Shown here in pieces: positions 8,524-44,244 of a DNA stretch of 52,069 nt (position 1 is its first letter; every line of letters starts with the position of its first letter). A program made the translations under genes and the position numbers. Below the pieces are notes generated by a model. It saw only the letters and a program-made list of their open reading frames with translations, was not told where the DNA came from and ran no database searches. This DNA comes from a virus: the IMG/VR virus record IMGVR_UViG_3300025446_000011, positions 1 to 52,069 of that record; one strand, 5' to 3'.

Positions 8524-9507
8524 ATGGCCTTTGCAAGCCTCCCATCCAGCCTGGACACTAGGCTCTGGGTACAGGTTCCCGTAATCGTCCTCCACCCTCC
8601 GTACACGAAGGTGGCGATAAGCCTCCCGGAGCTGGTGAGGCAGACGAACGCCTTCAGCGTGAAGCGGAGGGCAGGGTGCCAGCCTACCCTGAAGCGGAGC
8701 CGTCCCAAGGAGCTTTACCTGGAGTACAACGTGGTGTGCCACGAGAGCTACTCCGACCCCCGTGGCCATGACGTGCAGGTCCAGTTCGACCTCTCCCAGG
8801 TGGAGGAGACCCAGGACGCCAAGAGGCTGGACGTAAGGGTAAGCTGCTCCTGCCCGGCGTTCCTCTACTGGGGGGCGCAGTGGAACCTCCATCAGCGGGA
8901 CGGGCTGCACGGGCAGGCCCGCCCCCTCCTCCAGGCACCGACTCAGAGGCTCGACCTGCGGGGGAACTTCGTCATCTGCAAGCACGTCAAGGCCGTGTTC
9001 GAGCGCATACTGCCGGCCATCCAGCACAACATCACCAAGGTCGTGCGTGAGCGGGAGGTGAAGCGCACCAAGGAGCGCATGCTGAAGGAGGAGCGCCCGA
9101 CCGAGAAGGAGAAGCGCCTGCACCGGGAGCAGATGGAGATGAGGATGAAGAAGGACATCGACCGCATCCTCAGGACCAGGGACCCGGACGAGAGGGAGAG
9201 GCTGATAAAGGAGCTGGTGGAGAAGGAGAAGAAGCGCCTCTACAAGCAGGTGGAGACGGAGCGGGGGGAGAGGCCCAGGAGGAAGCCCCCTGCCGTGCCC
9301 CGGCCATCCCCCCCGGCGGCCCCAGGCCCTCCCCCCGAGGAGAAGAAGAAGGTCGTCAAGAGGGACGAGCCTGCCACTGCCCCCCCCAAGCCCCCCGTGC
9401 CTCCCAGGCCCCCCAGGGAGGAGCCTGGCCTGGAGGACCTGGTCAAGGAGGAGGAGAGGAAGCTGCGGGCCAGGAAGCCCCCCGAGAAGGGAGGGGTGCG
9501 CAAGTGA
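8524..9507 (+). CDS. SWIM-type zinc-finger protein with coiled coil
   Basis: A 327-residue protein. CSCPAF...ICKHV (about residues 107-160) matches the SWIM CxC...CxH zinc motif, here with a long insertion rich in Trp and Gln. Residues about 170-245 form a very charged coiled coil (KERMLKEERPTEKEKR), followed by Pro-rich and basic tails. SWIM-containing proteins occur in the late regions of several large phages, where a virion role is suspected. It overlaps the next gene by GTGA. Confidence 0.65.
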   Translation: MAFASLPSSLDTRLWVQVPVIVLHPPYTKVAISLPELVRQTNAFSVKRRAGCQPTLKRSRPKELYLEYNVVCHESYSDPRGHDVQVQFDLSQVEETQDAKRLDVRVSCSCPAFLYWGAQWNLHQRDGLHGQARPLLQAPTQRLDLRGNFVICKHVKAVFERILPAIQHNITKVVREREVKRTKERMLKEERPTEKEKRLHREQMEMRMKKDIDRILRTRDPDERERLIKELVEKEKKRLYKQVETERGERPRRKPPAVPRPSPPAAPGPPPEEKKKVVKRDEPATAPPKPPVPPRPPREEPGLEDLVKEEERKLRARKPPEKGGVRK

Positions 9508-11636: not shown

Positions 11637-11637
11637 C

Positions 11638-14460
11638 ATGAGCCTACTGCGCCCCAGCATCGTCTACCTGTCGAGCAGCGAGAACCCCTCCCTGACCGGC
11701 GACAACGTGACCTTCACGGCCGACGTGTACCCCAGCGTCACGGTGGTGCAGAGCACCAGCGGCACCAACGGGCTGTACTCCCCCTCCGTGACCCTCACCC
11801 TCGGGAGCTTCCCCACCCTGGGCAACACCCTCCTGGTGTTCGGCGGCATCCCCATCTCGGCGGCCGGCGCTGCCTCCGCCCTAGGGTTCACGGCGGCGAC
11901 GACGTACTACGGCTCCGGAGGCTCGTCCTTCGTCCTTACGAGGACCGTCCTGCCGGGGGACGGCAAGAGCTGGACGGTGTCCGGCCTCCCCTTCAACAAC
12001 GTGGCCAACCAGGGTAGGGTATTCCTGCTGGAGATACAGGGCACCCCCAGCATCCTCGCCGACGCAGGGGTGACGGCAGGCAGCCAGTACTACTACACCG
12101 CCCCGCTGTCCACCTCGGCCGTCTTCGGCGGGCCGGGGCTTGCCATAGCAGGGTTCTGGCACTACTTCCTCGGCAACGTGGAGAACATCCTCCCCACGGC
12201 CTACTCCTACCCCTCCTGGCTAGGGGGTACAGGGGCCGGGTATGATATCGTGGCCTGCAACGGGGACGTCCCCGCCAGCACCGCCGTGACGGCCACGCTC
12301 CTCTCCACGGTGGACAGCGGCATCATAGGGCAGGCGGTGTACGTGGACATCATGCTGCCCATCCCTACCGTCCCTACCGGGCACGTGGACTTCTACGACA
12401 GCTCCAGCCCCCCTGGGTACATGGGCACCGGCACGCTGTCCGGCAGGCAGACCTCCATATCCTCCTCCTCCCTGCCGGTAGGCAGCCAGACTATCACCGC
12501 TGCCTACAGCGGCGACTCCGGCTTCCTGCCCGGCAGCGGCAGCCTGGTGCAGACGGTCAGCTCCGGCACCTCCCCGACGACGACCTCCGTCGCCAGCAGC
12601 CAGGACCCCTCCGTGCAGGGGCAGGCGGTCAAGTTCACCGCCACGGTCTCCCTTGCGCCCGAGCTGGTCCAGTACAAGGGGGCATACTCCAGCCAGGCTG
12701 GGCGGTACGGCTTCCCCGTCTCCGTTACCCTCACCAGCAGCCCTACGGCCGGCAACACCCTCATAGCCCTGGCCAGCCTGTCGGAGCCGTACAGCGACTA
12801 CTACTTCGACCTCCCTGCGGGGTTTACCGAGCTAGCCTCCTATAGGCCGGGCGTCAACATACGCAACAGCGAGATAGTAGGCTACCGCATAGCCCAGGGC
12901 GGGGACCCGGCGACATGGAGCTTCCCCTGCAACACGGGGTCGGACGTGGCCCCGGGCCAGGTCTACATCTTCGAGTTCCTGGGGCAGCCCACGGTGCAGG
13001 CATCGTGCGGGGCGGCAGGCACCCAGGGCACATACCCCTGGTGGCAGACCCCTCCCCCCCTCCCGGTCACCACCGGCTCCATCGGCTCCAGCAGCCCCTT
13101 CATAGCCATCTGCCAGTTCATGATGTGGATGATGGCCGCCCCCTACGACTGGAACCCGGCCTTCTCGGAGATGGGGGGACCGTACGAGCCTTACACGGAC
13201 GCCCATCCCTGGGAGCTGGTGGGGGCGTCCCTTGCCAGCGGCCCTGTGACCGCCATGATGGGCGCAGGCTCGGCGGAGACGGTAGGGTACGCCCTCATCC
13301 TGCTCAACTACAGCAGCCAGGTCAGCGGCACGGTGAACTTCTTTGACAGCTCTAGCCCTCCCGGCTACCTGGGGAGCGCCGACGTCTTCAATAGCCAGGC
13401 ATCCGTCTCGACCTCCCTGCTCCCCGTGGGGCTTCAGACCATAACGGCGGACTACCTGGGCAACGCCGTCTTCCTGGCCAGCAGCGGGAGCACGCCGCAG
13501 ACCGTCACCGCCGCCCCGCTGGTAGCGGTGGACGGCACCCCCAACCCGAGCTACGTGGGCAGCCCCGTCACCATCGACGTGTCCGTCTCGGGCAGCAGCG
13601 GCACCCCCACCGGCACCGTGACCATCGCCGACGGCCTCGGCTCCCCTCCCTATGTCATAGGCACCATTACCCTGTCGGGGGGGAGCGGCTCCCTCGTCAC
13701 CTCCTCCCTGTCGGCCGGCAGCCACACCATCTGGGCGCTGTACAACGGGGACGTCAACTACCCCGCCGCCTCCAGCTACTACATCCAGGTGGTGGTGGAC
13801 AAGTACGCCCCCGTGGTGGGCATCGCCAGCGACCACAACCCCCAGTTCTTCGGGCAGGAGCTTACGCTGACCGCCACGGTATCCCCCCCCGCAGGGGTGC
13901 TTACCCTCCCTACCGGCACGGTCACCCTGACGGATTCCGTGACGGGCGGCATGGGCACCTATGCCCTCCCCCCCTCGGGCACCGTGCAGTGGACCATGGA
14001 CCCCTCCAGCCCGTGGGCCGTGGGGACGCACCTGGTGACGGCGTCCTACAGCGGGGACGCTCACTACTACCCCGGCACGGCCACCCTCTCCCAGCTCATA
14101 GTCGCAGAGGGGGGCATATACGCCGACCTGCCGGGGTTCGCCCTGGTGGCCTACTGCTCACCGGGGGGGGACGACAGCCTCCCCCCCTGGGCGTCCTTCG
14201 TCGCCGACCCCTCCACAGCAGCGGCGGGGCAGCCCGTCTACCTGCTGTGGACCGGCCTCAACATCGCCTCTGTCAGGATGTACGGCGACAACGGGGTGGG
14301 GGACTCCCTGGACACGGGGGTGCTCCAGACCAGCGGCTCCGGCATCTATACTGTTTCCAACGGCTTCCAGCATAGCATAACCCTTAGCTGCGTCGCCTAC
14401 GACTCCTCCGCCCCCCCGGACGTGGTGGCGTCCCAGGCCTTGGCCATCACCGTCACGTAG
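11638..14460 (+). CDS. Multi-domain Ig-like adhesin/tail fibre protein
   Basis: A 940-residue protein starting one base after the NHL gene. It contains at least four bacterial Ig-like (Big_3/5-type) units with the typical GTVxFxD...GxxxxxxxAxYxGD pattern, for example near residues 245-310, 560-625, 630-710 and 720-800. Two copies of a larger domain, each carrying SxPTxGNTLxxxA, are inserted in the N-terminal half (about 45-220 and 355-535). No signal peptide. It probably projects from the virion to bind the host surface; the duplicated inserts may be the specificity modules. Confidence 0.75.
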   Translation: MSLLRPSIVYLSSSENPSLTGDNVTFTADVYPSVTVVQSTSGTNGLYSPSVTLTLGSFPTLGNTLLVFGGIPISAAGAASALGFTAATTYYGSGGSSFVLTRTVLPGDGKSWTVSGLPFNNVANQGRVFLLEIQGTPSILADAGVTAGSQYYYTAPLSTSAVFGGPGLAIAGFWHYFLGNVENILPTAYSYPSWLGGTGAGYDIVACNGDVPASTAVTATLLSTVDSGIIGQAVYVDIMLPIPTVPTGHVDFYDSSSPPGYMGTGTLSGRQTSISSSSLPVGSQTITAAYSGDSGFLPGSGSLVQTVSSGTSPTTTSVASSQDPSVQGQAVKFTATVSLAPELVQYKGAYSSQAGRYGFPVSVTLTSSPTAGNTLIALASLSEPYSDYYFDLPAGFTELASYRPGVNIRNSEIVGYRIAQGGDPATWSFPCNTGSDVAPGQVYIFEFLGQPTVQASCGAAGTQGTYPWWQTPPPLPVTTGSIGSSSPFIAICQFMMWMMAAPYDWNPAFSEMGGPYEPYTDAHPWELVGASLASGPVTAMMGAGSAETVGYALILLNYSSQVSGTVNFFDSSSPPGYLGSADVFNSQASVSTSLLPVGLQTITADYLGNAVFLASSGSTPQTVTAAPLVAVDGTPNPSYVGSPVTIDVSVSGSSGTPTGTVTIADGLGSPPYVIGTITLSGGSGSLVTSSLSAGSHTIWALYNGDVNYPAASSYYIQVVVDKYAPVVGIASDHNPQFFGQELTLTATVSPPAGVLTLPTGTVTLTDSVTGGMGTYALPPSGTVQWTMDPSSPWAVGTHLVTASYSGDAHYYPGTATLSQLIVAEGGIYADLPGFALVAYCSPGGDDSLPPWASFVADPSTAAAGQPVYLLWTGLNIASVRMYGDNGVGDSLDTGVLQTSGSGIYTVSNGFQHSITLSCVAYDSSAPPDVVASQALAITVT

Positions 14461-31000: not shown

Positions 31001-31387
31001 ATGATTATAAAGCACTTGACAGCACTCGACACCAAGGCGGCCGCCGATGGCACCTGGACCTGGGTAGGCAACTGGTCGGCCATGTCCGTCCATATCGTAG
31101 GGCTGGAGGGGGACGTCTGGGTGGAGGTCTCGAACGACCCGGCCGCCGACCCGGCCCGCTATGCCAGCCCCCCCACCATACCGGAGGGGTGCGACATCAC
31201 CGGCAACCTCACCTCCGGCGGCTCCCCCCCGGCCATCGTCGAGGAGGTCAGCATCGCCTACAGCCGGGACGGCACGCAGGTCATGGTCAGCCCCTCTGCC
31301 CTGGTATGGAAGTGGCTCCGTGTGTGCAAGAGCGGGGGGGGCGCTACCGATACCGTCGCCTACCTGATGGGCCAGGTGGAGGCCTAG
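31001..31387 (+). CDS. Small beta-rich, virion-type protein
   Basis: A 128-residue protein (MIIKHLTALDTKAAADGTW...) with beta-sandwich-like composition and alternating hydrophobics (VHIVGLEGDVWVEVSNDP). Its pattern resembles small decoration or tail-associated phage proteins. Ends four bases inside the convergent pyruvyltransferase gene. Confidence 0.55.
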   Translation: MIIKHLTALDTKAAADGTWTWVGNWSAMSVHIVGLEGDVWVEVSNDPAADPARYASPPTIPEGCDITGNLTSGGSPPAIVEEVSIAYSRDGTQVMVSPSALVWKWLRVCKSGGGATDTVAYLMGQVEA

Positions 31388-32226
31388 CCCGTGAAGGGGT
31401 GCATGGCGCACTCCAGGAACCGCAGGTAGTCCTCCCGCAGCCTCGGGGCACCTACCGGCTCCGGCCTTCCCAGGGCGGCAGGCGGCAGGCCCCCTTCCCT
31501 CCCTACCACCTTGACTCCTACCTCGCCGAGGATGCTGGTACGGTCGTCGTCCGGGCCGACGTACACGACCGGCGTCCCGAACGCCACGCAGGGTAGGGCC
31601 GCATGCAGGCGGGACGTGAACACCAGCTCCGCCCTGCGGTACCGTGCGAGGAGGCCGTAGGCCTCCCTGTACTGCCCTGCCACCGTCTCCTCGCTGGCCT
31701 CCTCGTAGGAGAAGGGGGGGAGGGTATGGGACACGGCGACGGCGTCCCCGTAGGCCCCGGACACCGCCCTGTAGACCTCCTCCCCCGTGTCAACGCAGAA
31801 CACCCCCTCCCTCTTCCCCTGGTACGGCGGCAGGGTAAGGGTGGCGCACCCCACCAGGACGGAGGGGAGGCCGTGCCTGCGGAGGAACCCCTCCGTGGCC
31901 GGGTCCCTGCACCCGACTATGCCGCAGGGCCTTACCGCCTCGGCCGTCTCCGTGGTCCGGCAGAAGGGGGCTATATGGATGCCCACGTACCTGACGTCAC
32001 GGAACCAGTCCCTCCTGGGCATGCCGTAGAACGCCATCCACCCGTTCGCCAGCAGGACCAGGTCCCCCTGCTCCGTCAGGTGGTCCCGTGGCACGAGCCT
32101 CCGTGGGGCCACGTGCTGGAGCAGGGCAAGGGTCTGGATATGGTCCCCCAGGTTGTGGTTGAAGTACGAGAGCACGCAGAAGGGCGAGTCGTCGTCCAGG
32201 GCCATCAGTTCTTCGAGGCTTTTCAT
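31384..32226 (-). CDS. Polysaccharide pyruvyltransferase-family protein
   Basis: A 280-residue protein of the PS_pyruv_trans family, which adds pyruvyl ketals to surface polysaccharide sugars or acts as a related glycan transferase. Family features are NHNLGDHIQT near residue 23, VGCRDPAT (about 104), GCATLTL (about 125) and TSRLHAALPCVAFGTPVVYV (about 204-223), the last being the best-conserved part. It ends the glycan operon and follows a hairpin, so it may be transcribed less than upstream genes. Acceptor unknown. Confidence 0.75.
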   Translation of the reverse strand: MKSLEELMALDDDSPFCVLSYFNHNLGDHIQTLALLQHVAPRRLVPRDHLTEQGDLVLLANGWMAFYGMPRRDWFRDVRYVGIHIAPFCRTTETAEAVRPCGIVGCRDPATEGFLRRHGLPSVLVGCATLTLPPYQGKREGVFCVDTGEEVYRAVSGAYGDAVAVSHTLPPFSYEEASEETVAGQYREAYGLLARYRRAELVFTSRLHAALPCVAFGTPVVYVGPDDDRTSILGEVGVKVVGREGGLPPAALGRPEPVGAPRLREDYLRFLECAMHPFTG

Positions 32227-32267
32227 CTACCCGCCCCTTTCTTAGAGGTCCCCGGTGCCCATCCAAG

Positions 32268-32287
32268 AGGGGGGCTTTAGCTCCCCT
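32268..32287 (-). terminator. Hairpin between the fusion transferase and the pyruvyltransferase
   Basis: An 8-bp stem AGGGGAGC / GCCCCCCT (one G-U pair on the minus strand) with a 4-base loop, in a 157-base gap where I see no gene. It lacks a U-tract. It may attenuate read-through into the last operon gene. Confidence 0.4.
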
Positions 32288-32383
32288 GGGCCACGAGCCA
32301 TAGGGACTGCCACTGAACTGGCTCCCGCACCGTGGCAGGGGAGGAGGGGCCGGGACCGGGGAAAGTCGGTCCTCCTCCCCAAC

Positions 32384-34081
32384 TTACCTCACCAGGAACA
32401 GCACCTTCTTGCCCTGCGGCGTATCTACCACCTCCTCCAGGTGCTCCGGCATCGTCTTGCGTAGCTGCATATGGTAGGACGACCCCATAGGGCATACCGC
32501 TGCCACCCTGAACCCCCTGGATACCGCATGGTTGACCTTGTTCCCCAGTATGGTGCTCTGCCAGTCCGACCTCGGCGGGGGGGCAGGAGGGCGCTGCGGC
32601 ACGGGGCGCTGGGGGATAGTGGGGCGCTGGGCTGGCGGCCGCTGGACCTGCACGGGGCGCTGGGGCCCGGGGACGGGCATGATTATCGGGACTGGCCGGG
32701 GCGGCACGGCCGGGGGCCTGGGCGGGAAGGGCTTCCTCCCCGTCAGCATGTCGTGGCACTCCTCCATGTCCCCGGCGCTCGGGAGCTGTGTCACCACCAC
32801 CGTATCCTTGCTGATTATCTTCTGGAAGGGGACCTGGTTCCTGTGCGGGTCGAGGAACGGGGGGATAAGGTACCCAGGGAGGGGCTTCAGCCTTATGCCC
32901 GCCTTCCCTAGCACCTGCCCTACCCACCTGTCCTCCGCCCAGTCCCCGTAGAAGGGGGCGTCGGCCACCATCCCCATCGCCTTCCTGGAGAGCCAGTATG
33001 CCCCGCCGCTGGCGTAGTCGTACCTGATGGTCCCGTTGGGCAGCGGCGGGATTCCCATCGCCACGCTGCCGCAGTCGTTCCTGGGCAGGAACAGCCCGGC
33101 ATAGTCCTCCCTCGGCACCGCCAGGTTGGCGACGTTCACGTAGCAGTCGTCGTCCGTCTTCATCATGCTGTCGTAGCCCTTCCCCAGCGCCCACCCGCAC
33201 AGGGCCTTGGTCTTGAGCGGCAGGGACAGGTAGTCGTCCGGTACCCCCAGCTTCTCCCCGTCGAAGGCCACGACGTCGTAGCCCGCCGCCTCGGCGGCCG
33301 GCACCCACGTCTTCCTCTGTATGGCGAGCCTCTCCCTGTACCTCGGCTGGCCGCAGGTCACGATGGCTATGAGGGCGTTCTTGCGTGCCTTCCACCTTGC
33401 CTGGTCGGGCTTCTCCAGGTGCTTTATCTTCGGGGAGAAGGCGGCAGGGCTTACGGTCATCCAGCGCTCCGGGTGCCTTATGGCCCTGGGGTCCGGGTAG
33501 GCGTATGCGGGGGTCAGGGCCCTTGCCGGGGGATGGTCCAGGAGGTAGCGGTTGAGGTGCGACTCGTCGTGCCATACCGCCGTTATGCCCTTGGCCTTGT
33601 CGGCGTCTATGCTCGCCGCCAGCACCCTGCACATCTCCAGGAAGGGGTCTGTCCTCCCCCCTTGCAGGCACCCCTGGTAGTAGGCGGGGTCCCCCTCCAC
33701 ATAGGCCGTGGACTCCCTCCTCCTCTCGAAGGTCCCTGGGTACCCTGGGTGGATGACGGCCGTTATGCCGTCCGAGAAAAGCTCCTCCTCCGTCACCCTC
33801 TGGCATGCCAGCATGTCCACGTCCAGGTACAGGAGGTGCTCGTAGCCCCGCAGCGCCTCCTCCTGCGACAGGAAGGCATGGTAGCGCATCAGGGAGGCCC
33901 CCGGCCACCCCAGGTCCGCCCAGGGGGCCTTCGTGACGCCCCCGAACTCCTCCTCGCTGTCCGTGAACAGGATGACGTCGTGGGGGGGGAAGTTCTCCCT
34001 CAGGGAGGCCACGAGGGGGGCCACGAACTTGGTGTACCTCTCTCCCCCGGTCGCAATCAGCAGTATCGCCAGCTTATGCAT
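32384..34081 (-). CDS. GT6 - GT31 bifunctional glycosyltransferase fusion
   Basis: A 565-residue protein with two glycosyltransferase domains. Domain 1 (1-210) matches family 6 (ABO / alpha-1,3-Gal(NAc) transferases): LFTD at 38, YLDVDM with the DVD metal site at 87-89, HPGYPG at 111, STAY and YYQG, and AVWHDESHLNRYLL at 168-181. In that last motif the Glu (173) aligns with the catalytic Glu of ABO enzymes. Domain 2 (about 235-410) is GT31-like (beta-1,3-galactosyltransferase): QRKTWV, TDDDCYV (309-315), YDYASGGAYWLS, WAEDRWVG (381-388). A Pro-rich linker (about 450-520) and a short conserved-looking tail follow. It overlaps the upstream methyltransferase gene. The acceptor and donor sugars are inferred, not read. 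Confidence 0.8.
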   Translation of the reverse strand: MHKLAILLIATGGERYTKFVAPLVASLRENFPPHDVILFTDSEEEFGGVTKAPWADLGWPGASLMRYHAFLSQEEALRGYEHLLYLDVDMLACQRVTEEELFSDGITAVIHPGYPGTFERRRESTAYVEGDPAYYQGCLQGGRTDPFLEMCRVLAASIDADKAKGITAVWHDESHLNRYLLDHPPARALTPAYAYPDPRAIRHPERWMTVSPAAFSPKIKHLEKPDQARWKARKNALIAIVTCGQPRYRERLAIQRKTWVPAAEAAGYDVVAFDGEKLGVPDDYLSLPLKTKALCGWALGKGYDSMMKTDDDCYVNVANLAVPREDYAGLFLPRNDCGSVAMGIPPLPNGTIRYDYASGGAYWLSRKAMGMVADAPFYGDWAEDRWVGQVLGKAGIRLKPLPGYLIPPFLDPHRNQVPFQKIISKDTVVVTQLPSAGDMEECHDMLTGRKPFPPRPPAVPPRPVPIIMPVPGPQRPVQVQRPPAQRPTIPQRPVPQRPPAPPPRSDWQSTILGNKVNHAVSRGFRVAAVCPMGSSYHMQLRKTMPEHLEEVVDTPQGKKVLFLVR

Positions 34082-34637
34082 TTCTCTTCTCTTGGAACGG
34101 GCGGTGCGCCCTTGCTATGTCGTCCTGCACGTAGAAGGACCAGTCCGGATGGGCGTCCAGCAGCCTCCTCCTTATGTCCTCCACGGGGGGATAGTCCTTC
34201 GCCGTGCCGAAGGCCCGCATGTCGTCTATGACGACCACGATGTCGTCCCTCCCCCACCCCAGGATGGCGTCCAGCTCCCCCTGGATGGCGCTGTCCTGCG
34301 GGCCACGTGCCGTCCTCCCCTCCGACCAGTGGGCGTCCAGCCAGAACACCGCTGGCCTTCCTATGCCGTGCAGGATGCAGGGCAGGACCACGGCGCTGTC
34401 CCCGTGGAAGAGGTGGACGTTGGGGCACCCTGCGAACCTTTGCAGGCAGAGGCCGTAGAAGAAGTCGGACAGCTCTATGGAGTAGACGTCCCTGAAGAAC
34501 CACCTGGTGTACTCTATCGTGTCCCCGTCGCAGGAGCCTGTCTCCACCAGGGTGTCTATGCCCGCCCTGAGGGCGTACTCCACGAGGGTCCACCGCTTGT
34601 ACTCGCCTGGGGGCGAGGGGTTATGCCATGCTCCCAT
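34074..34637 (-). CDS. SAM-dependent methyltransferase-like protein of the glycan operon
   Basis: A 187-residue class I methyltransferase-like protein. Motif I is LVETGSCDGDTIEY (about residues 30-43), followed by YSIELSD (about 52), a GDS segment, AVFWLDAHWSEG (about 95-106) and DIVVVIDDMRAFG (about 130-142). The FWLDAHxxxG and IDDxRxF pattern occurs in methyltransferase-like proteins of polysaccharide clusters. Starts inside the end of the GT31 gene and ends inside the start of the fusion gene, so it is translationally coupled. Confidence 0.65.
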   Translation of the reverse strand: MGAWHNPSPPGEYKRWTLVEYALRAGIDTLVETGSCDGDTIEYTRWFFRDVYSIELSDFFYGLCLQRFAGCPNVHLFHGDSAVVLPCILHGIGRPAVFWLDAHWSEGRTARGPQDSAIQGELDAILGWGRDDIVVVIDDMRAFGTAKDYPPVEDIRRRLLDAHPDWSFYVQDDIARAHRPFQEKRNA

Positions 34638-35328
34638 CTTTCCCCCTCCTGAAGCCCAGCACCCTCTCGGGGTCCAGGCCCTTGCCGTGCCCGAGGTGGG
34701 ACAGCTCTGCCACCCATGCCCCCATCCCCGTTATGCGGTGGTAGTTTATGCCGTTCCTCCGCATGATGTCCCCCACCCACCAGTCCTCTGCCCACAGGTC
34801 CATGGGGGCGTCCAGCAGCAGCCCTGCGGCGGCGGCGGTCAGCCAGTAGCCGTGCGCCCCCCAGATGGCCTCGTCGCCTGGGTTGCACGTCCCGGCGTAC
34901 TGGTGCCCCTCAAAGCCGCTGCCCCTTATGCCCTCCCAGTCCAGCACGTAGCTGTCGGCCACGAACTGGAGGCAGTGGGTGTACCCCCGCTCTAGCTGGA
35001 ACCTGGTAATCTCCTTCTTCTTCCACGGGAGGGCGATATAGGCGTCGCAGCAGCCCACCTCCACCTCGTCGGGCAGGAGGGGCCTCCCCATCTCCTCCCT
35101 GGAGAAGAACCCGTGGAACCTCCTCCCCCTCTCGTCTATGAACCCGTGCTTCTTGCAGTCGTCCAGGAAGCGGTCGGTGAGAGGCTCCAGCGGCACCTCC
35201 CCCGGCCTGCCCACGAAGAGGAACAGCGGCCAGGGGCACCCCCTCCCCCATGTGTCCCTTATCGCCTGGTGTACCCCGGTCATGGCGAACTTCACGCAGG
35301 AATGCACTGCTACGAACGGTCTCAGCAC
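34621..35328 (-). CDS. GT31-like glycosyltransferase
   Basis: A 235-residue protein resembling the GT31-like half of the fusion gene: HQAIRDTWG (about 20-28), LFLFVG, DAYIALPWKKKEI (about 95-107), YTHCLQFVADSYVL, WGAHGYWLTAAAAGLLLDAP, WAEDWWVGDIM (about 180-190). The metal-site triplet reads ADS rather than DDD, so donor binding or activity may differ. The GTG start at 35328 overlaps the fucosyltransferase end; GGAGAGGTGG lies upstream. Confidence 0.65.
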   Translation of the reverse strand: MLRPFVAVHSCVKFAMTGVHQAIRDTWGRGCPWPLFLFVGRPGEVPLEPLTDRFLDDCKKHGFIDERGRRFHGFFSREEMGRPLLPDEVEVGCCDAYIALPWKKKEITRFQLERGYTHCLQFVADSYVLDWEGIRGSGFEGHQYAGTCNPGDEAIWGAHGYWLTAAAAGLLLDAPMDLWAEDWWVGDIMRRNGINYHRITGMGAWVAELSHLGHGKGLDPERVLGFRRGKDGSMA

Positions 35329-36155
35329 TTTAGCCACCTCTCCGGCACGATGTCCCCGGTGTCGAGCCTGGCCATCGGCCCCATCCATACGGCGGGGGCC
35401 ACTACGGTCCTCCCCGCCGCCCAGTCCCCCAGCCATGCGCCCCACCACGAGAAGGAGCTGTTGGCGACGACGGCGTGCCTGCACAGGGACATCAGCCACA
35501 GGTCCTCGTTCTCCCTGCCCGGCATGCCGGAGCCGAACAGCCTCCCTCCCGGCCTGTTGTGCCCGACCACCCTGAGGCCCGGGAACGCCTCCCTGCACCA
35601 CTCCGGCTCGTCCGAGAAGACGAAGAAGCGGGCGTCCTCCACCCTCTCCCTCACCAGGGCCATGGCGGGGGGGTAGTACCCGGTGTCCCAGAGGTTGCGG
35701 TGGTACTCCGCCTGCTTCAGGTAGTCCGTCCTGCGCACGTGCAGGAAGGCGCTCCTCCTCCCGGCCGCTGCAATCTCGTCCGCCGCCCTCCTGGAGGCCT
35801 CGCTCGGGCTGCGGCACGTGGAGAACCAGGACCTTACCAGCGGGGGGTCGTCGTAGTACCTCTCCGTCTGCCAGTAGCCGTCGAACAGCACCCCGTCCGG
35901 CACCGTGTAGACCTGGGGGTTGAAGGAGAAGGGGTCCTCGTGGTAGACGCCCGTGCCCGCCCTCCCGCCCGCCCCGAACACCGCCGTGAACTCCACGGGG
36001 ATGTCGAACACCCCCAGCATGTAGCAGCGCTTGTGGTCCGAGTCCGCCCCGTCCCTGGCGAAGCACAGCCTCTCCCCCCTCCTCGCCGCCACGGAGCGCC
36101 CGAAGGCGTACTGGAACATCTGGTTCCCCAGCCCCCCCACCAGCCTTACTATCAC
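35322..36155 (-). CDS. GT11 alpha-1,2-fucosyltransferase
   Basis: A 277-residue enzyme of family 11, which transfers fucose from GDP-fucose alpha-1,2 to a galactose acceptor. Hallmarks are GGLGNQMFQYAFGRSVA at residues 6-22, LFDGYWQTERYY (about 105), the donor-binding HVRRTDYL (about 145), FVFSDEPEWC (about 190) and NSSFSWWGAWL (about 235-245). GTG start overlapping the GT2 stop (GTGA). No GDP-fucose synthesis genes are seen, so the donor must come from the host. Confidence 0.88.
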   Translation of the reverse strand: MIVRLVGGLGNQMFQYAFGRSVAARRGERLCFARDGADSDHKRCYMLGVFDIPVEFTAVFGAGGRAGTGVYHEDPFSFNPQVYTVPDGVLFDGYWQTERYYDDPPLVRSWFSTCRSPSEASRRAADEIAAAGRRSAFLHVRRTDYLKQAEYHRNLWDTGYYPPAMALVRERVEDARFFVFSDEPEWCREAFPGLRVVGHNRPGGRLFGSGMPGRENEDLWLMSLCRHAVVANSSFSWWGAWLGDWAAGRTVVAPAVWMGPMARLDTGDIVPERWLKC

Positions 36156-36805
36156 AGCAGCGTCCCCCCCGTGGCCCCCTCTACCTCCTCCCACGGCACC
36201 TCCACGAAGGAGGGCGAGGGCACCCGCTTGGGGGCGGCGTTCCTGGGGTGTATGGTGGACACCAGCAGCCCCAGGTCGTTCAGGTCCCTGTGCCTCTCGG
36301 GGGGAATCCTGCGCTGGAAGCTGGTGTCCGCCCCCTGCGGCAGGTCGTCGAACCTGCCGGCCTCCCATACGGAGCGCCTGAAGGCCGGGGCGGCCAGCCA
36401 CCACCCCTTGGTCATGTTCCTGTACACGAACGCCCGCCGCTGCCCGTGGAGGTAGTAGTACAGCCTCCCCGTGCCGCAGATGTCTACCCCCGCCTCGTTC
36501 AGGGGCGCTGCCTGCCTCGACACCCTGTCCGGGGCGTACCAGTCGTCGTCGTCCCATACTATGGCCGCCAGGCCCGTGGAGGACTCCATGGCACGGTTCA
36601 TCAGCGCCCCGTGCCTGAGCCTGGGCCCGGGCAGCCTTATGTACCTTATGCGGGGGTCCTGCGGCAGGAGGTCCTGGATAGGGTCCGAGCCGTTGTCCAC
36701 TATCACCCACTCCAGGCTGGGATAGTCCTGCGAGAGGAAGCACCTCAGGCACCGGGGCCAGAACTCCCTGCGGTCCGCCGTTGGGGTGATGCAGGATACG
36801 AGCAT
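36152..36805 (-). CDS. GT2 family glycosyltransferase
   Basis: A 217-residue GT-A enzyme. CITPTADRREFWPRCLRCFL (1-25), WVIVDNGSDP (about 33-42), RLRHGALMNRAMESS (about 62-76) and IVWDDDDWYAPDR (about 82-94) are the nucleotide-sugar and DxD elements of family 2. The C-terminus is short compared with many GT2s but the catalytic core is present. Three bases after the HNH gene, it heads the glycosyltransferase run. Confidence 0.8.
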   Translation of the reverse strand: MLVSCITPTADRREFWPRCLRCFLSQDYPSLEWVIVDNGSDPIQDLLPQDPRIRYIRLPGPRLRHGALMNRAMESSTGLAAIVWDDDDWYAPDRVSRQAAPLNEAGVDICGTGRLYYYLHGQRRAFVYRNMTKGWWLAAPAFRRSVWEAGRFDDLPQGADTSFQRRIPPERHRDLNDLGLLVSTIHPRNAAPKRVPSPSFVEVPWEEVEGATGGTLL

Positions 36806-36807
36806 CG

Positions 36808-37233
36808 CTACCCCCCTGCCCCCCTTCTCCTCCGCTCGAACGCTTGCAGGTACCCAAGCAGCTCCCTTATGACTATCTGGTTCCCCTGGAAGCACCCGAC
36901 TCCTGCCTTGCACCTGGAGCACAGCAGGCCCCTTACCTCCCGAGTAGCGGGGTCGTGGTCCACGTGCGACGCCCTGCGGTCTCCGTGGGGGATAGGCTCG
37001 TGGCATACGGCGCACCTCCTCCTCTGCGCCTCCCAGAGGGCCAGCAGCTCGCTGTCGGCCATGCCCTGGCGGTACTTCCGGGTATAGGCGGTGCCCTGCT
37101 TCCTGGAGCATTCCCGGCAGCGGCTCCTCCTGCCGCTCGGGTGGTAGGAGGACCCTCCGAACCTGCCCAGGTCCAGCCACGCCCGGCATCCGGGGCACCA
37201 CTTCTCCCTGTCCGTATAGAGGCGCTTCCTCAT
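36808..37233 (-). CDS. HNH / endonuclease VII-like protein
   Basis: A 141-residue protein with two zinc-type pairs (CPGC...CREC, about residues 11-35) and an HNH-like nuclease core CAVC...HVDHDPATREVRGLLCSRC (about 80-115), resembling the recombination endonuclease VII family. HVDHD and the second cysteine pair are the expected metal and zinc sites. It may be a homing or junction-resolving nuclease. It is the first gene of the glycan operon; the start at 37233 lacks a strong ribosome site. Confidence 0.75.
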   Translation of the reverse strand: MRKRLYTDREKWCPGCRAWLDLGRFGGSSYHPSGRRSRCRECSRKQGTAYTRKYRQGMADSELLALWEAQRRRCAVCHEPIPHGDRRASHVDHDPATREVRGLLCSRCKAGVGCFQGNQIVIRELLGYLQAFERRRRGAGG

Positions 37234-39658: not shown

Positions 39659-40495
39659 ATGGGCCTCAGGCACGGCAGCCTCTTCAGCGGCATCGGGATG
39701 ATTGACTACGGCCTGGAGCTTGCGGGCTTCAGGACCGCATGGCAGGTAGAGATAGACCCCTACTGCCAGGCGGTGCTGCGCAAGCACTGGCCGGGGGTCC
39801 CTCTCTACGGGGACGTGAAGGAGTGCGGGAGTGGGAGAGAGCACGAGCTTGAGCGGGTTGACCTCGTCAGCGGGGGGTTCCCCTGCACAGACATCAGTAT
39901 CGCCGGTCACGGGCCGGGAATCGGCACCCCCGACAACCCGACGAAGAGAAGTGGCCTCTGGTACGAGTTCCACCGAATCGTGCGGGAGATGCGCCCTAGG
40001 TGGGCAGTCATTGAAAACGTGGCTAGACTCCTGCATACGGACGATGGTGCCGGGGTCATCTTTGACATGGAGAAGGAGGGATATGCGTGCTGGCCCTTCC
40101 TACTGGGAAGCCATGTCATCGGAGCGCCCCACGAGAGGCGGAGGGCTTGGATTGTCTGCCGTGACAACCACTCCCACGGCGACTGCGATACTGGTGCAGG
40201 AGTGGGACAGGGGCAGCTTCCCGATAACCTCCGGCGGGCGTTTGAGGAAGCGGTCGAAAAGGAACATCACTGGAAGTGCGAACTGGCCGCAGGAGATGAT
40301 GGCACGCATGGTCCTCCAGAGGAACCCGAGCCTGCTGCCTACAGCCGAGGCGTGCGAAGAGTTCATGATGATTCCCACTGGGTGGACCGACTTAGGTGCT
40401 GCGGGAACAGTGTCATATGGTTCTTCCCCGCAGTCATCGGAGCCTACATCGCCCAGGCCGGGGAAGGAGGGGAAGATGGAGACAGAGGAGACTAG
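39659..40495 (+). CDS. DNA cytosine-C5 methyltransferase 1
   Basis: A 278-residue C5 methyltransferase. Motif I is SLFSGIGMIDYGLELAGF (residues 6-23), motif IV GGFPCTDIS (about 70-78, catalytic Cys), motif VI WAVIENVARLL (about 117-127), motif VIII HERRRAWIV (about 155-163), and motif X WVDRLRCCGNSVIWFFPAV (about 241-259). The target-recognition segment between VIII and X is only about 75 residues. Codons become AT-richer from about 39840, where a second open frame begins. Likely leaderless. Recognition sequence unknown. Confidence 0.85.
   Translation: MGLRHGSLFSGIGMIDYGLELAGFRTAWQVEIDPYCQAVLRKHWPGVPLYGDVKECGSGREHELERVDLVSGGFPCTDISIAGHGPGIGTPDNPTKRSGLWYEFHRIVREMRPRWAVIENVARLLHTDDGAGVIFDMEKEGYACWPFLLGSHVIGAPHERRRAWIVCRDNHSHGDCDTGAGVGQGQLPDNLRRAFEEAVEKEHHWKCELAAGDDGTHGPPEEPEPAAYSRGVRRVHDDSHWVDRLRCCGNSVIWFFPAVIGAYIAQAGEGGEDGDRGD
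39831..40475 (+). other. Open +1 frame overlapping methyltransferase 1
   Basis: Open from an ATG at 39831 and continuous, without a stop, into the 40476 gene. The translation holds TPTATAI, SGGRLRK and MMIPTGWTDL, which resemble the LNPxxVEWLMGFPxGWTDL pattern I recall from proteins annotated next to phage C5 methyltransferases. Equally long +1 frames overlap the other two methyltransferases. It may be a dual-coded gene or a conserved shadow frame. Confidence 0.35.
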
Positions 40496-40814
40496 GACGG
40501 GGGCAGAGGCAGGGGGGCAGGCAGCGCCGCCTGCGCCGGCCGGGCAGGCCCAGGCAGTGCCCAGGGCCAGGAGGCCGAGGGCCAAGGGGGAGTGGGCCTT
40601 CATCTCCAAGCGGGTCCTTGCCCGCCTCGACAGGCAGCCCAGCAACCTCCAGTCGTTGGAGAAACGGCTGGTGGAGGTAAAGCATATAGTCAAGGAGGGG
40701 CTGACCGAGCAGGCGGAGCTGGAGGAGGCTATCGCAGCCTTCAAGGGCGTGCGTGCCAAGGGCGGCCCCCAGCCACCTGAGAGGCGGCCGGCAAAGGCCA
40801 AGACCCTGTCCTAG
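40476..40814 (+). CDS. Small basic helical protein between methyltransferases
   Basis: A 112-residue protein starting at ATG 40476 after AAGGAGGGGAAG. A disordered Ala/Pro/Gly N-terminus is followed by a charged coiled coil (about 50-95, VLARLDRQPSNLQSLEKRL). It overlaps the methyltransferase 1 end by 20 bases in the same frame as the overlapping open frame. Unknown function; possibly a partner subunit. Confidence 0.6.
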   Translation: METEETRTGAEAGGQAAPPAPAGQAQAVPRARRPRAKGEWAFISKRVLARLDRQPSNLQSLEKRLVEVKHIVKEGLTEQAELEEAIAAFKGVRAKGGPQPPERRPAKAKTLS

Positions 40815-40821
40815 GGGCATA

Positions 40822-41703
40822 GTGAGAGTCTACTACAACGACAACGACAAGTTCTGCTGCGGGTGGGTGGAAAAGCTCATCGAGGCAGGGCTTGTCCCCC
40901 CTGGGGACATCGACGACAGGAGCATATGCGATATAGGGCCCGAAGAGGTCAGGAGGTACGACCAGTGCCACTTCTTCAACGGGATTGGGGGATGGCCCCT
41001 GGCCCTCCTCCAGGCAGGGTGGGGGGACAGGCCCGTATGGACAGGCTCGTGCCCGTGCCAGCCGTTCAGCTCGGCAGGGAGGAAGGAGGGGGTCAAGGAT
41101 GAAAGGCACCTCTGGCCAGCCTTCTTCGGCCTCATCCAGGAGTGCCGCCCTCCAGTCGTGCTTGGAGAGCAGGTTGCGACAGCGGTTGGAAGGGGCTGGC
41201 TCGACATTGTACTCGGAGACCTGGAGGCGGAAGGCTACGCCTGCGGGGCGACTGTACTTGGCGCACACAGCGTCGGCGGCCCCCACATCAGGCAGCGGAT
41301 ATACTGGTGGGGCGACAGGGATTTCAGGGTACCCTACCCCGCAGGCACGGGACTACAAGGGTCCGCAGGGGAGGGCCTACGAGACCAAGCGTGCGACCTG
41401 CTCGACGACGAGCAGGGTGGTCGGGAAGAAGAAGCAGCAGGCGCTCGACCTCCCGGCAGTGGCGCTGATGGTGGAGGGAGTGGGGCAGCGCTTCCCGGAG
41501 GCAAGGGTTTCTGGAAGGGCTGGGAATGGCTTCTGTTCCGTGACGGCACGAGGCGTCCAGTTGAACCCGGCGCTTTCCCGCTGGCTCATGGGGTTCCCCA
41601 GGGAGTGGGACGACTGCGTGGCTACGGTAACGCTCTCTGCGTCCCGACCGCCAAGGCGTTCATAGGGTCCTACATGGAGGCCGTCAGCCCAGCAGTTCCC
41701 TGA
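40822..41703 (+). CDS. DNA cytosine-C5 methyltransferase 2
   Basis: A 293-residue enzyme with a GTG start seven bases after the upstream stop. N-terminal YYNDNDKFCCGWVEKLIEAG (given in part) and FFNGIGGWPLALLQAGW (motif I, about 52-68) mark the phage/actinobacterial Dcm type. Motif IV is GSCPCQPFSSAGR (about 76-88), motif VI reads LGEQVAT, motif VIII GGPHIRQRIYWWGD (about 153-166), and motif X GRLRGYGNALCVP (about 269-281). EPGAFPLAHGVPQGVGRLR precedes motif X as in relatives. The middle target domain is low-complexity. Confidence 0.85.
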   Translation: MRVYYNDNDKFCCGWVEKLIEAGLVPPGDIDDRSICDIGPEEVRRYDQCHFFNGIGGWPLALLQAGWGDRPVWTGSCPCQPFSSAGRKEGVKDERHLWPAFFGLIQECRPPVVLGEQVATAVGRGWLDIVLGDLEAEGYACGATVLGAHSVGGPHIRQRIYWWGDRDFRVPYPAGTGLQGSAGEGLRDQACDLLDDEQGGREEEAAGARPPGSGADGGGSGAALPGGKGFWKGWEWLLFRDGTRRPVEPGAFPLAHGVPQGVGRLRGYGNALCVPTAKAFIGSYMEAVSPAVP

Positions 41704-42538
41704 ACTTGTCGGGCAGCCTGCCCGCCAGGCCCTCGTCGAAGTCCTGTAGGTACTCGGGGGGCACCCTGCCCCTTATCCGCCCCACGTCCTGCGGCTGGTC
41801 CCAGTAGCGGAACCCTGCGTCCATGAGCTGGTAGAACAGGTCCTTGCGGTGGCCCTTCATGCGGATTACGTCGGTGTCGTCCTGCCCGTAGTTCGGCCCG
41901 AACTCCTCCATCCCCAGGGCGACGAGGAGGCCCGGCATGTCCACCCCTGCCTCTGGGCATACCTTGATGTTCACCTCGTAGGAACCCCAGCTCTCCTCCG
42001 ACTTCCTGCTTATCACCCCGTCCCCCTTGGCCTGGGGTTCTTCCATGAAGCCCTCGTAGGTCTGTGGCATCTTGTAGTCCTGCGCTGTCTCTATCTCGGC
42101 CCTGGTCTTTTCCCAGTCCTTGGGGGTCTCCCAGACCCGCAGGTACAGGACCCCGTCCCTTGCCATCCAGCCGTACAGCCAGTCCAGCATGCCGGGCTTG
42201 AAGGCGACCTGGTTGTACGTCCTGCCGCCCAGGTACAGGGAGTACCGTGTCCGCTCTTTCTTGGGCCTGGGGTTCCTGTGCTCGGCGGCTCTCTCGGCGG
42301 CCCTCTCGGCCGCTTCCCTCCTGGCCTCGGCCTCCTCGGCTTCCTTCTCGGCCTTCTCGGCCGCTGCCTTCCTGGCCTCGGCCCAGTGCTCCGGGCTGAC
42401 GTAGGGTAGGCCCGATGCCTCTAGCTCCGCCCATGCCCTGCGCCGTGCCTCACGCTCGGCCCTCCTGGTCTCGAAGCCCTTCCAGAACTCCTCGCTCCGG
42501 GCTATAAGCTCGGAGAGTTCCGTGCCGCAGTTTTCCAT
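41684..42538 (-). CDS. Coiled-coil protein of unknown function
   Basis: A 284-residue protein starting MENCGTELSELIARSEEF after GGAGGGAGC. Residues 20-100 form an Ala/Glu/Arg coiled coil (EAEEAEARREAAERAAERAA); the C-terminal 170 residues are globular with RTYNQVAFKPGMLDWLYGWM. It ends 20 bases inside methyltransferase 2 on the opposite strand. No family recognised. Confidence 0.65.
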   Translation of the reverse strand: MENCGTELSELIARSEEFWKGFETRRAEREARRRAWAELEASGLPYVSPEHWAEARKAAAEKAEKEAEEAEARREAAERAAERAAEHRNPRPKKERTRYSLYLGGRTYNQVAFKPGMLDWLYGWMARDGVLYLRVWETPKDWEKTRAEIETAQDYKMPQTYEGFMEEPQAKGDGVISRKSEESWGSYEVNIKVCPEAGVDMPGLLVALGMEEFGPNYGQDDTDVIRMKGHRKDLFYQLMDAGFRYWDQPQDVGRIRGRVPPEYLQDFDEGLAGRLPDKFRELLG

Positions 42539-42555
42539 GCTCCCTCCATGCCTAT

Positions 42556-42593
42556 AGTATACACCGAGAAACACCAGGATACAGGGGGAAGTT
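42556..42593 (-). promoter_or_regulatory. Minus-strand bipartite promoter
   Basis: AACTTCCC-N22-TGTATACTATA, with the spacing conserved and the upstream half diverged. Drives the 42538 gene. Confidence 0.6.
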
Positions 42594-42604
42594 GGGGCGT
42601 TCCC

Positions 42605-42951
42605 CTAGTAGTTCTTCCAGAGGCACTCCACCTCGTCGGTATTGCTGAGCTTGTTCCGCTTCGGCACCCTGAGGAACGGCTCCCCGAGCGCCTCCAGGTA
42701 GGTCCTGTGCCCGTACTCGCTCAGCAGCCAGCGGAACCTGGCGCTCTTGAGCATGCCAAGAGCGGGGCGGTGGCTATGTCGTTGACATGATACTCCTCGA
42801 ACTTCCACGGGGCGAGGGTACCCACGGCCCACAGGACGTTCCCCCGCCCTGCGAACGGCTCCGTGTAGGTCCTGGCACAGGGCATCTGGTCCACCAGCAC
42901 CCTGGCCATGCCCGTCTTGCTCCCCGCATAGGGGAGGTTCGGCAACCGCAT
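42605..42951 (-). pseudogene. Decayed Dam-type adenine methyltransferase
   Basis: The 5' part (42721-42951, 76 codons) carries the Dam-like N-terminus: LPYAGSKTGMARVLVDQMP and EPFAGRGNVLWAV (motif I), then HVNDIATAP. The frame then stops, but the -1 frame continues to 42605 with RFRWLLSEYGHRTYLEALGE and VECLWKNY, which resemble the C-terminal part of phage adenine methylases. The catalytic DPPY region is missing entirely. So an internal deletion plus a frame change has removed activity. Alternatively the pieces are two small genes. The promoter at 42971 is intact. Confidence 0.6.
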
Positions 42952-42970
42952 TGTGTTTCCCCCCGCTTGC

Positions 42971-43008
42971 ATAATACATCGAGGTACATGCTCCGGCCAG
43001 GGTATCGT
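42971..43008 (-). promoter_or_regulatory. Minus-strand promoter, weaker match
   Basis: TGTATTATGC with the 22-base spacing to ACGATACC, which only partly matches AGAATCCC. Upstream of the decayed adenine methyltransferase. Confidence 0.45.
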
Positions 43009-43023
43009 CCCCAAGCCTGGATG

Positions 43024-43035
43024 GTATTAGCCAGC
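43024..43035 (+). promoter_or_regulatory. -10-like box for a leaderless gene (GTATTA-N6-ATG)
   Basis: GTATTA followed by GCCAGC and ATG: the third copy of this arrangement. Divergent from the minus-strand promoter at 42971. Confidence 0.55.
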
Positions 43036-44244
43036 ATGGGACTCGTCTACGGAAGTGTTTGCAGTGGTATAGAGGCAACCACGGTGGCATGGGAGAGTCT
43101 CGGGTGGAGGCCTGCCTGGTTCTCGGAAATAGACGAGTTCTGCTGCGAGGTCCTCAGGCAGAGGTACCGGGACAAGTACCCCGAGGCTGACAACCTCGGG
43201 GACATGGTAGGGATAACCGGGCACCCGAAGTTCCAGTCCACCCACGTGGACCTAATCGTCGCTGGTACGCCGTGCCCGGCGTTCTCCACAGGTGGCCTGC
43301 GGGGGGGATTCAAGGACGACAGGGGGAAACTTACACTTGAGTATGTCAAAATCCTTGGGGCAAAGAAGCCAGAGTGGTTCGTCTGGGAGAACGTCGATGG
43401 GGTCATCTCCATGCCCAACGTCCAAGAGGACGGTAGTGTGCCTGATGACAAAAGGTGGCTATTTGGCACCATCCTCGGGGAGATGGTTGAATGCGGGTAC
43501 GGGGTCGCCTACAGGGTTCTGGACCCACAGCATCTCGGCCTCCCCCAAAGCCGTCCCCGAGTCTTCGTGGTCGGCCATCTTGGCGACTGGGCCGGTCCCG
43601 AAAGAGTACTATTTAACGGATACCCATCTGATAACTACACTCCGGGAGGCGGCGATAAAGCGAGGCGCATACCTGCTCTTACTACCCAGACTGCGGGAAA
43701 TGCGAACGCAAGAGGCGTCGTCGTGGTTGAATGCACTGGCGAAGTGGACTGGGCAGACCCACCGTGCGGAGAAGACCGAAAGTGGGCGGTTCGTGCCCTC
43801 ACCCCGATGGAGGAAGAGAAAAGGCAGGGATTCCCCGGCGACTATACCGCCATTGACTGGCACGGAGGCCCAGCCCCCGACGCCCTGAGGTACAGAGCGA
43901 TAGGCAACTCCATGGCCATACCCGTCATGCGGTGGCTGGGGGAGCGCATACAGGAAGTAAACGACCAAATCAAGGGAGGCACGTTCATGGACCAGCATAA
44001 GGCAGACACGATAGACGGGGTACCGGTAGCGCCGCCGCAGCCCGAGTTCCAGCCCGAGATAGAGGCCAAGCCCAGGAAGCAGCATAGGACGCAGCAACGG
44101 GCATCCTTCCTGCCGCCTGTCCTCTCTCAAATGCTTGGCAGGATTCCCGCAAACGTCCAGATGGCCGAGAAACTACTCAGGGAGCTGGAGGAGCAGGCGG
44201 AACAGGTACGTTCCTTCATAGCAGCATTGAAGGCCCAGTCCTAG
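43036..44244 (+). CDS. DNA cytosine-C5 methyltransferase 3 with C-terminal tail
   Basis: A 402-residue protein. Motif I is GSVCSGIEATTVAWESLGW (residues 6-24), motif IV IVAGTPCPAFSTGG (about 74-87), motif VI WFVWENVDGVIS (about 113-124), motif VIII HLGLPQSRPRVFVVGHL (about 170-186), a target region, QGFPGDYTAID, and motif X YRAIGNSMAIPVMRWLGERI (about 284-303). From codon 318 a separate coiled-coil tail begins with its own SD (GGGAGG) and ATG at 43987, so it may also be made alone. GC3 drops between about 43290 and 43890, matching an overlapping open +1 frame. Confidence 0.87.
   Translation: MGLVYGSVCSGIEATTVAWESLGWRPAWFSEIDEFCCEVLRQRYRDKYPEADNLGDMVGITGHPKFQSTHVDLIVAGTPCPAFSTGGLRGGFKDDRGKLTLEYVKILGAKKPEWFVWENVDGVISMPNVQEDGSVPDDKRWLFGTILGEMVECGYGVAYRVLDPQHLGLPQSRPRVFVVGHLGDWAGPERVLFNGYPSDNYTPGGGDKARRIPALTTQTAGNANARGVVVVECTGEVDWADPPCGEDRKWAVRALTPMEEEKRQGFPGDYTAIDWHGGPAPDALRYRAIGNSMAIPVMRWLGERIQEVNDQIKGGTFMDQHKADTIDGVPVAPPQPEFQPEIEAKPRKQHRTQQRASFLPPVLSQMLGRIPANVQMAEKLLRELEEQAEQVRSFIAALKAQS

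Follow-up and report, generated by a model that had tools for sequence, protein, structure and literature searches.

A recurrent GT6, GT11 and GT31 glycosyltransferase cassette in phages, a candidate route to H/A/B-type glycans

A 52,069-base viral record (IMG/VR IMGVR_UViG_3300025446_000011), referred to here in its full length as the window, carries a minus-strand operon in which glycosyltransferases of the CAZy families GT6, GT11 and GT31 stand side by side. The same three families act in the vertebrate ABO(H) blood-group pathway, represented there by ABO (GT6), FUT1/FUT2 (GT11) and B3GALT5/C1GALT1 (GT31). The trio recurs in 20 distinct phage groups, and its members are repeatedly fused to one another or to further transferases. 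With a probability of roughly 0.55, the operon's enzymes form a soluble assembly line in the cytoplasm that builds a branched, fucosylated H/A/B-type glycan. A sequence-only reading, made without database searches, had pointed to the three families and to such a pathway; the profile, structure and active-site comparisons described below place the GT6, GT11 and fused GT31 domains within the families it named.

The operon and its enzyme families

The run extends over positions 31384-37233 and consists of the following genes and domains.

36808..37233, minus strand: endonuclease VII-like gene, first of the run (PF02945, 52.4 bits; PHROG 2633)
36152..36805, minus strand: GT2 glycosyltransferase (PF00535, 71.1 bits)
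35322..36155, minus strand: GT11 gene of the alpha-1,2-fucosyltransferase type, GTG start (PF01531; PHROG 2644; HVRRTDY and SSFSWWGAW)
34621..35328, minus strand: orf4, a divergent protein with a GT31-like fold (GT31-type hidden Markov model (HMM); AlphaFold model)
34074..34637, minus strand: possible class I S-adenosylmethionine (SAM) methyltransferase (methyltransferase-like motifs)
32384..34081, minus strand: GT6-GT31 fusion gene, 565 residues (Pfam, PDB, model)
33406..34081, minus strand: GT6 domain of the fusion, with DVD and WHDE (PF03414; PDB 4ayj)
32729..33405, minus strand: GT31-type domain of the fusion (beta-1,3-galactosyltransferase fold), with DDD and EDxxVG (PF01762)
32387..32569, minus strand: 61-residue C-terminal appendage of the fusion, after a Pro-rich linker
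31384..32226, minus strand: polysaccharide pyruvyltransferase-family gene (PS_pyruv_trans; PF04230, 48.6 bits)

Six of these genes overlap or abut, with junctions that comprise, from 5' to 3' in the operon, a 2-nucleotide (nt) gap and then four overlaps (about 4, 7, 17 and 8 nt, in that order). The pyruvyltransferase-family gene lies 157 nt downstream, and the earlier description of seven coupled genes therefore holds for six. Its description of the run as a glycan operon likewise fits the glycan genes and not the first, nuclease gene, which occupies the same place in the related loci L005, L009 and L167 and forms the border of a variable glycan locus. No membrane segments are predicted in the operon enzymes.

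The GT6 domain matches PF03414 with 80.0 bits (cut-off 25) and PHROG 3317 with 130 bits, in agreement with the CAZy GT6 profile, and its best PDB match is the bacterial enzyme BoGT6a (4ayj; 3.5e-29), with human ABO transferases at about 1e-18 to 1e-19. Its DVD and WHDE motifs, the latter with the catalytic Glu, align with those of the human enzyme, as the ABO-type assignment had proposed. The DxD motif is kept in 75 of 77 viral GT6s; bacterial GT6s (n = 80) comprise 52 with NxN and 26 with DxD. Positions equivalent to ABO 266-268, which determine the donor, read QGC in the window, LGG in human transferase A, MGA in human transferase B and AGG in BoGT6a, and viral GT6s sort at these positions into AGG, QGC, CGG and AAA groups. 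NxN enzymes are metal-independent and the tested DxD enzyme is metal-dependent (PMC3961637); because it is of the DxD type, the window GT6 should, by analogy, require metal. Extra GT6 copies with DxC in place of DxD stand beside an intact GT6 in L009 (9941-10699) and L010 (9974-10705) and are possibly inactive or altered paralogues.

For GT11, PF01531 gives 66.0 bits (cut-off 23.9) and PHROG 2644 gives 156 bits, and the columns of the HxRRxDY and SSFSWWGAW motifs are mostly invariant across an alignment of 15 phage GT11s, so that profile and motifs both agree with CAZy GT11. A single-sequence PDB search returned nothing useful, and a family profile gave weak matches to alpha-1,6-fucosyltransferases alone. 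Because these searches were uninformative, the assignment, which upholds the earlier one, is based on Pfam, PHROGs and the motifs.

The GT31-type domain of the fusion scores 28 bits against PF01762, barely over the cut-off of 23, and was for this reason subjected to additional profile and fold tests. A family profile built from 18 sequences finds human B3GALT5 (4.3e-12), B3GNT2 (3.5e-10) and C1GALT1 (4.2e-10) in the PDB, and the AlphaFold model of the domain (predicted local distance difference test (pLDDT) 89.8) has B3GNT2, B3GalT5, B3GalT6, fringe and C1GalT1 as its top solved folds. The alignment retains DDD and EDxxVG; CAZy GT31 profile, fold and DxD motif are thus concordant. The earlier claim of more than one GT31-like domain is weaker for orf4, which has no match to PF01762 or any other Pfam family, falls outside the CAZy GT31 profile and carries ADS where the metal-binding DDD would stand, with AEDWWVG preserved. 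A GT31-type HMM that did not have orf4 among its input sequences nonetheless matches it at 4e-22, and its AlphaFold model (pLDDT 84) has a fold match to B3GalT5 (1.1e-8). By profile and predicted fold, orf4 is GT31-like rather than a GT31 member; with so degenerate a DxD motif, its activity may be lost or changed, or it may serve as a partner.

The 61-residue appendage is common to the window, L005, L006 and L167, with 66-67% identity. It is present as a single copy per record, and a search of six records located it in no position other than C-terminal to GT31. GT31 and the appendage form the constant part in the window lineage, joined to differing enzymes. An open reading frame (ORF) of 822 residues at L005:8492-10960, also present in L006, comprises GT32-like, methyltransferase-like and GT31 domains followed by the appendage.

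Pfam and PHROGs agree on endonuclease VII, GT11 and GT6, while GT2, Galactosyl_T and PS_pyruv_trans are supported by Pfam alone; the GT2 and pyruvyltransferase-family assignments of the sequence-only reading are borne out by these matches. Its methyltransferase retains the motifs and weak matches of its family profile to SAM enzymes in the PDB (E 0.016 or worse), and has neither a Pfam nor a PHROG match.

Recurrence of the trio and a candidate pathway

Loci gathered by separate GT6-, GT11- and GT31-seeded scans were searched with HMMs built from the phage domains. Each scan keeps the best 80 matches and the scans overlap one another; their counts are thus samples and not population frequencies. 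A GT31-family alignment (A2) proved too diverse for the collection scan and was replaced by two narrower ones. When phage groups are defined by GT6s at most 95% identical between groups, GT6, GT11 and GT31 occur together in 20 of them, on a single strand in every case and within 3.4 kb in 19. Gene order varies among these groups. Among GT6-seeded viral loci, 69 of 79 have GT11 in their flanks, 60 of them within 1.5 kb, whereas GT6 is present in 15 of 80 GT11-seeded loci. The GT31-seeded scans yielded 35 loci; GT6 and GT11 were both present in 15 of these, and GT6 was always accompanied by GT11. The arrangements include tight tandems, such as that of L016, and several fusions.

L016: tandem of GT31 (9962-10693), GT6 (10690-11385) and GT11 (11382-12095)
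Window: GT6-GT31 fusion
L008-L010: GT31-GT6 fusion
L167: GT11-orf4-GT31 fusion
L031: GT31-GT32-like-GT6-GT2 fusion

The four-transferase fusion of L031 is a single ORF of 1000 residues (9956-12955).

Genes for the fucose donor accompany some of these cassettes. GDP-mannose dehydratase (GMD) exceeds its equivalog cut-off in L010, L011, L012, L014 and L016, and L010, L011 and L014 also encode a protein whose best family is GDP-fucose synthase (279-298 bits, below the strict cut-off of 500). The gene for this protein adjoins GMD in L010 and L014 and lies in the same locus in L011. As judged from these genes, L010, L011 and L014 could convert GDP-mannose into GDP-fucose. The glycan island of L016 also holds a gene for a dehydrogenase E1-type (thiamine pyrophosphate, TPP) domain (12891-13520), which perhaps serves an unusual branched sugar.

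Together, the 20 groups, the fusions, the dependence of GT6 on GT11 and the GDP-fucose genes in three phages support the proposal, already put forward in the sequence-only reading, that the three families serve one pathway. In such a pathway, the GT31-type enzyme would attach a beta-1,3-linked sugar, probably galactose (Gal), to the growing chain, GT11 would place an alpha-1,2-linked fucose on the sugar added by GT31, and GT6 would cap the same residue with an alpha-1,3-linked sugar resembling Gal or N-acetylgalactosamine (GalNAc). We infer that GT6 depends on the GT11 product because GT6 loci nearly always contain GT11 and GT11 loci rarely contain GT6; this one-way dependence is what the order from H to A or B leads one to expect. 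Because the enzymes are fused or encoded by overlapping genes, they would be predicted to work together as a single complex. The GT2, methyltransferase-like and pyruvyltransferase-like proteins would make or trim the remainder of the glycan.

Alternatively, the three families may make separate linkages within generic, shuffling glycan islands, with no shared H/A/B-type branch. Transferases are indeed shuffled in phage glycan islands, the window, L005, L009 and L167 differ in gene order, the families are broad, and GT11 occurs in many phages that have no GT6. Separate linkages are nevertheless an unlikely explanation for a trio that recurs in 20 groups, mostly within 2-3.4 kb, with repeated fusions in both domain orders and a dependence that runs one way.

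Several observations also weigh against an H/A/B-type pathway itself. The fused query of the GT6-seeded scan favours loci with both of its domains, a bias that the GT11- and GT31-seeded scans were intended to offset. GMD and epimerase genes were not found in the window or in a 127-kb contig with identical sequence, and GDP-fucose would therefore have to be supplied by the host or by genes elsewhere in the genome. GT31 includes N-acetylglucosamine (GlcNAc) transferases and others, so that Gal as the first sugar is not assured. Finally, the QGC site of GT6 is unlike that of human A, human B or BoGT6a; sequence by itself does not identify the sugars, and the H, A or B epitope suggested earlier is a candidate product.

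Virion or host surface as the target

The glycan is tentatively assigned to the phage's own virion proteins, a slight preference over remodelling of the host surface that still stands just short of even odds. It is favoured because the enzymes are soluble only, because the examined loci and their flanks contain no flippase-, polymerase- or ligase-like multi-pass membrane proteins, and because chloroviruses offer a precedent. In chlorovirus PBCV-1, A111/114R is a three-transferase capsid-glycan protein with galactosyl- and fucosyltransferase parts that is independent of host organelles (PMC7826918). It resembles the phage fusions in being a virus-encoded multi-domain transferase, possibly without homology to them; however, it belongs to an algal virus, and for the phage cassette virion glycosylation is a proposal. 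A mycobacteriophage precedent points in the same direction, as does the location of the glycan locus in the window lineage, where packaging and virion genes lie on either side of it.

Host-surface remodelling, the function proposed by the sequence-only reading, is a serious competitor, though we consider it somewhat less probable than its negation. Under this explanation, a lipid- or lipopolysaccharide-linked host glycan would be the substrate of the enzymes in the infected cell, and the resulting change in O-antigen or capsule would prevent superinfection or stop progeny from adsorbing to debris. Glycan clusters of cyanophages and jumbo phages that contain such transferases have been read in this way (PMC7824862), O-antigen-type nucleotide-sugar genes (GMD, RmlC-like, PseB-like, aminotransferase) lie near related cassettes, and a pyruvyltransferase-family gene suits an exopolysaccharide. 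Other phage lineages, moreover, place the cassette among replication and nucleotide-sugar genes, and a surface polysaccharide therefore fits as well as virion glycans do. The lack of flippase, polymerase, ligase or similar membrane proteins in the loci and the virion-side position in the window lineage speak against it, making virion glycosylation at least as likely. Mimicry was also suggested earlier; as mimicry of vertebrates it finds no support, since the window phage has a relative that infects a tundra-soil acidobacterium.

Glycosylation of hypermodified phage DNA bases is very improbable. Phage glycosyltransferases can hypermodify DNA, according to Pyle et al. 2024 as it is cited in PMC12619734, and DNA methyltransferase genes lie nearby in the window. 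Conversely, base hydroxymethylases descend from the thymidylate-synthase family (PF00303), and no match to this family was found in 15 of the 16 related records, among them the window, the 127-kb contig and the 237-317 kb contigs. To our knowledge, GT6, GT11 and GT31 enzymes do not act on DNA.

A broader proposal, that large phages widely carry a self-contained H/A/B-type pathway with an animal-type GT31 and use fused enzymes to coat their own particles with blood-group-like glycans, is doubtful. If this is true, viruses would join vertebrates and bacteria as a third source of ABH-type sugars. Phage glycan genes are usually seen as undifferentiated glycosyltransferases. The recurrent module described here is made of three specific families, and its fusions and pathway-like dependency predict a concrete product that could be made in vitro. 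If that product is confirmed, phages would have a defined coat of branched sugar or a defined tag on the host surface, glycan synthesis would gain small, soluble GT6 and GT31 enzymes of the DxD type, and there would be material bearing on the origin of ABO-type DxD GT6 enzymes.

Known systems and genomic setting

The phage operon unites all three transferase families of an ABH-type cluster and keeps their vertebrate motifs (DxD and WHDE in GT6, HxRRxDY in GT11, DDD and EDxxVG in GT31). In contrast to the vertebrate enzymes, those of the phage are short, soluble and partly fused, have QGC at the GT6 donor site and are known from sequence. Bacterial H/A/B-like glycans are made by E. coli O86-type O-antigen clusters (WbnI, a GT6, with GT11) and by Bacteroides ovatus BoGT6a (PMC4202792, PMC3961637). 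In these systems too, GT6 acts on Gal that has been fucosylated by an alpha-1,2-fucosyltransferase. The beta-1,3-galactosyltransferases are, however, listed as GT2 (PMC4202792) instead of GT31, and bacterial GT6s are mostly NxN whereas those of phages are DxD.

A scan of bacterial genome contigs (n = 80 GT6 loci) found GT11 in 49, within 1.5 kb in 38, and a GT31 partner in none. PF01762 had no match in 50 genomes of those bacteria, a zero that is not proof of absence, and matched in 16 of 17 phage records. GT6 with GT11 is thus common to phages and bacteria, and the GT31 partner is a phage feature in this sample. In a quick midpoint-rooted tree, the DxD GT6s of 26 of the 80 bacteria (L084-L163), including Dependentiae and Chlamydiae, cluster with phage GT6s, and human ABO falls on the phage side with support of about 0.9. 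Exchange of GT6 between phages and bacteria of the Dependentiae/Chlamydiae type is possible on this tree.

Cyanophage glycan clusters also combine GT11 and GT6, which are annotated in P-SSM2 and adjoin in Bellamy; the P-SSM2 record already bears the annotation 'glycosyltransferase family 11'. Phage GT6 and GT11 have been treated as auxiliary genes (PMC12016548). Unlike these clusters, the GT31 domains of the window and L016 have no match among 50,697 annotated phage records, and no description of a phage GT31-GT6-GT11 trio was found in the open-licence literature. The pairing of GT6 and GT11 in phages is therefore known already; the recurrent GT31-containing cassette and its fusions are new.

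The window derives from a large tailed soil phage with a major head protein (PHROG 2522) and a terminase. Three of its proteins resemble proteins of the Tunturiibacter jumbo phage Tunturi 5 (309 kb), whose host is a tundra acidobacterium (PMC11924767); Tunturi 5 itself yielded no match to GT6.

6299-7300: capsid protein, 68.6% identity
28119-30116: terminase, 45.6% identity
38392-39123: third Tunturi 5-like protein, 54% identity

Loci L083 and L283 are listed in the same Tunturi 5 comparison. The window is only part of a larger phage genome, since the 127-kb contig has sequence identical to it and contigs of 237 and 317 kb hold close relatives. Relatedness suggests that Acidobacteriota are probably the hosts of this lineage. 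Tunturi 5 gp300 and gp301 (L284:21959-23697) are both annotated 'galactosyl transferase' and were considered as cassette members, but Pfam identifies a pyruvyltransferase-family protein (gp300) and a GT2/GT7-like protein (gp301). Elsewhere in the window, several DNA cytosine methyltransferase-like genes cluster at 39659-44244, and PHROGs confirms the first of them. Repeat-like stretches occur in two large proteins encoded 3' of the capsid gene (9504-14460); both proteins may lie on the virion surface and are candidates for carrying the glycan.

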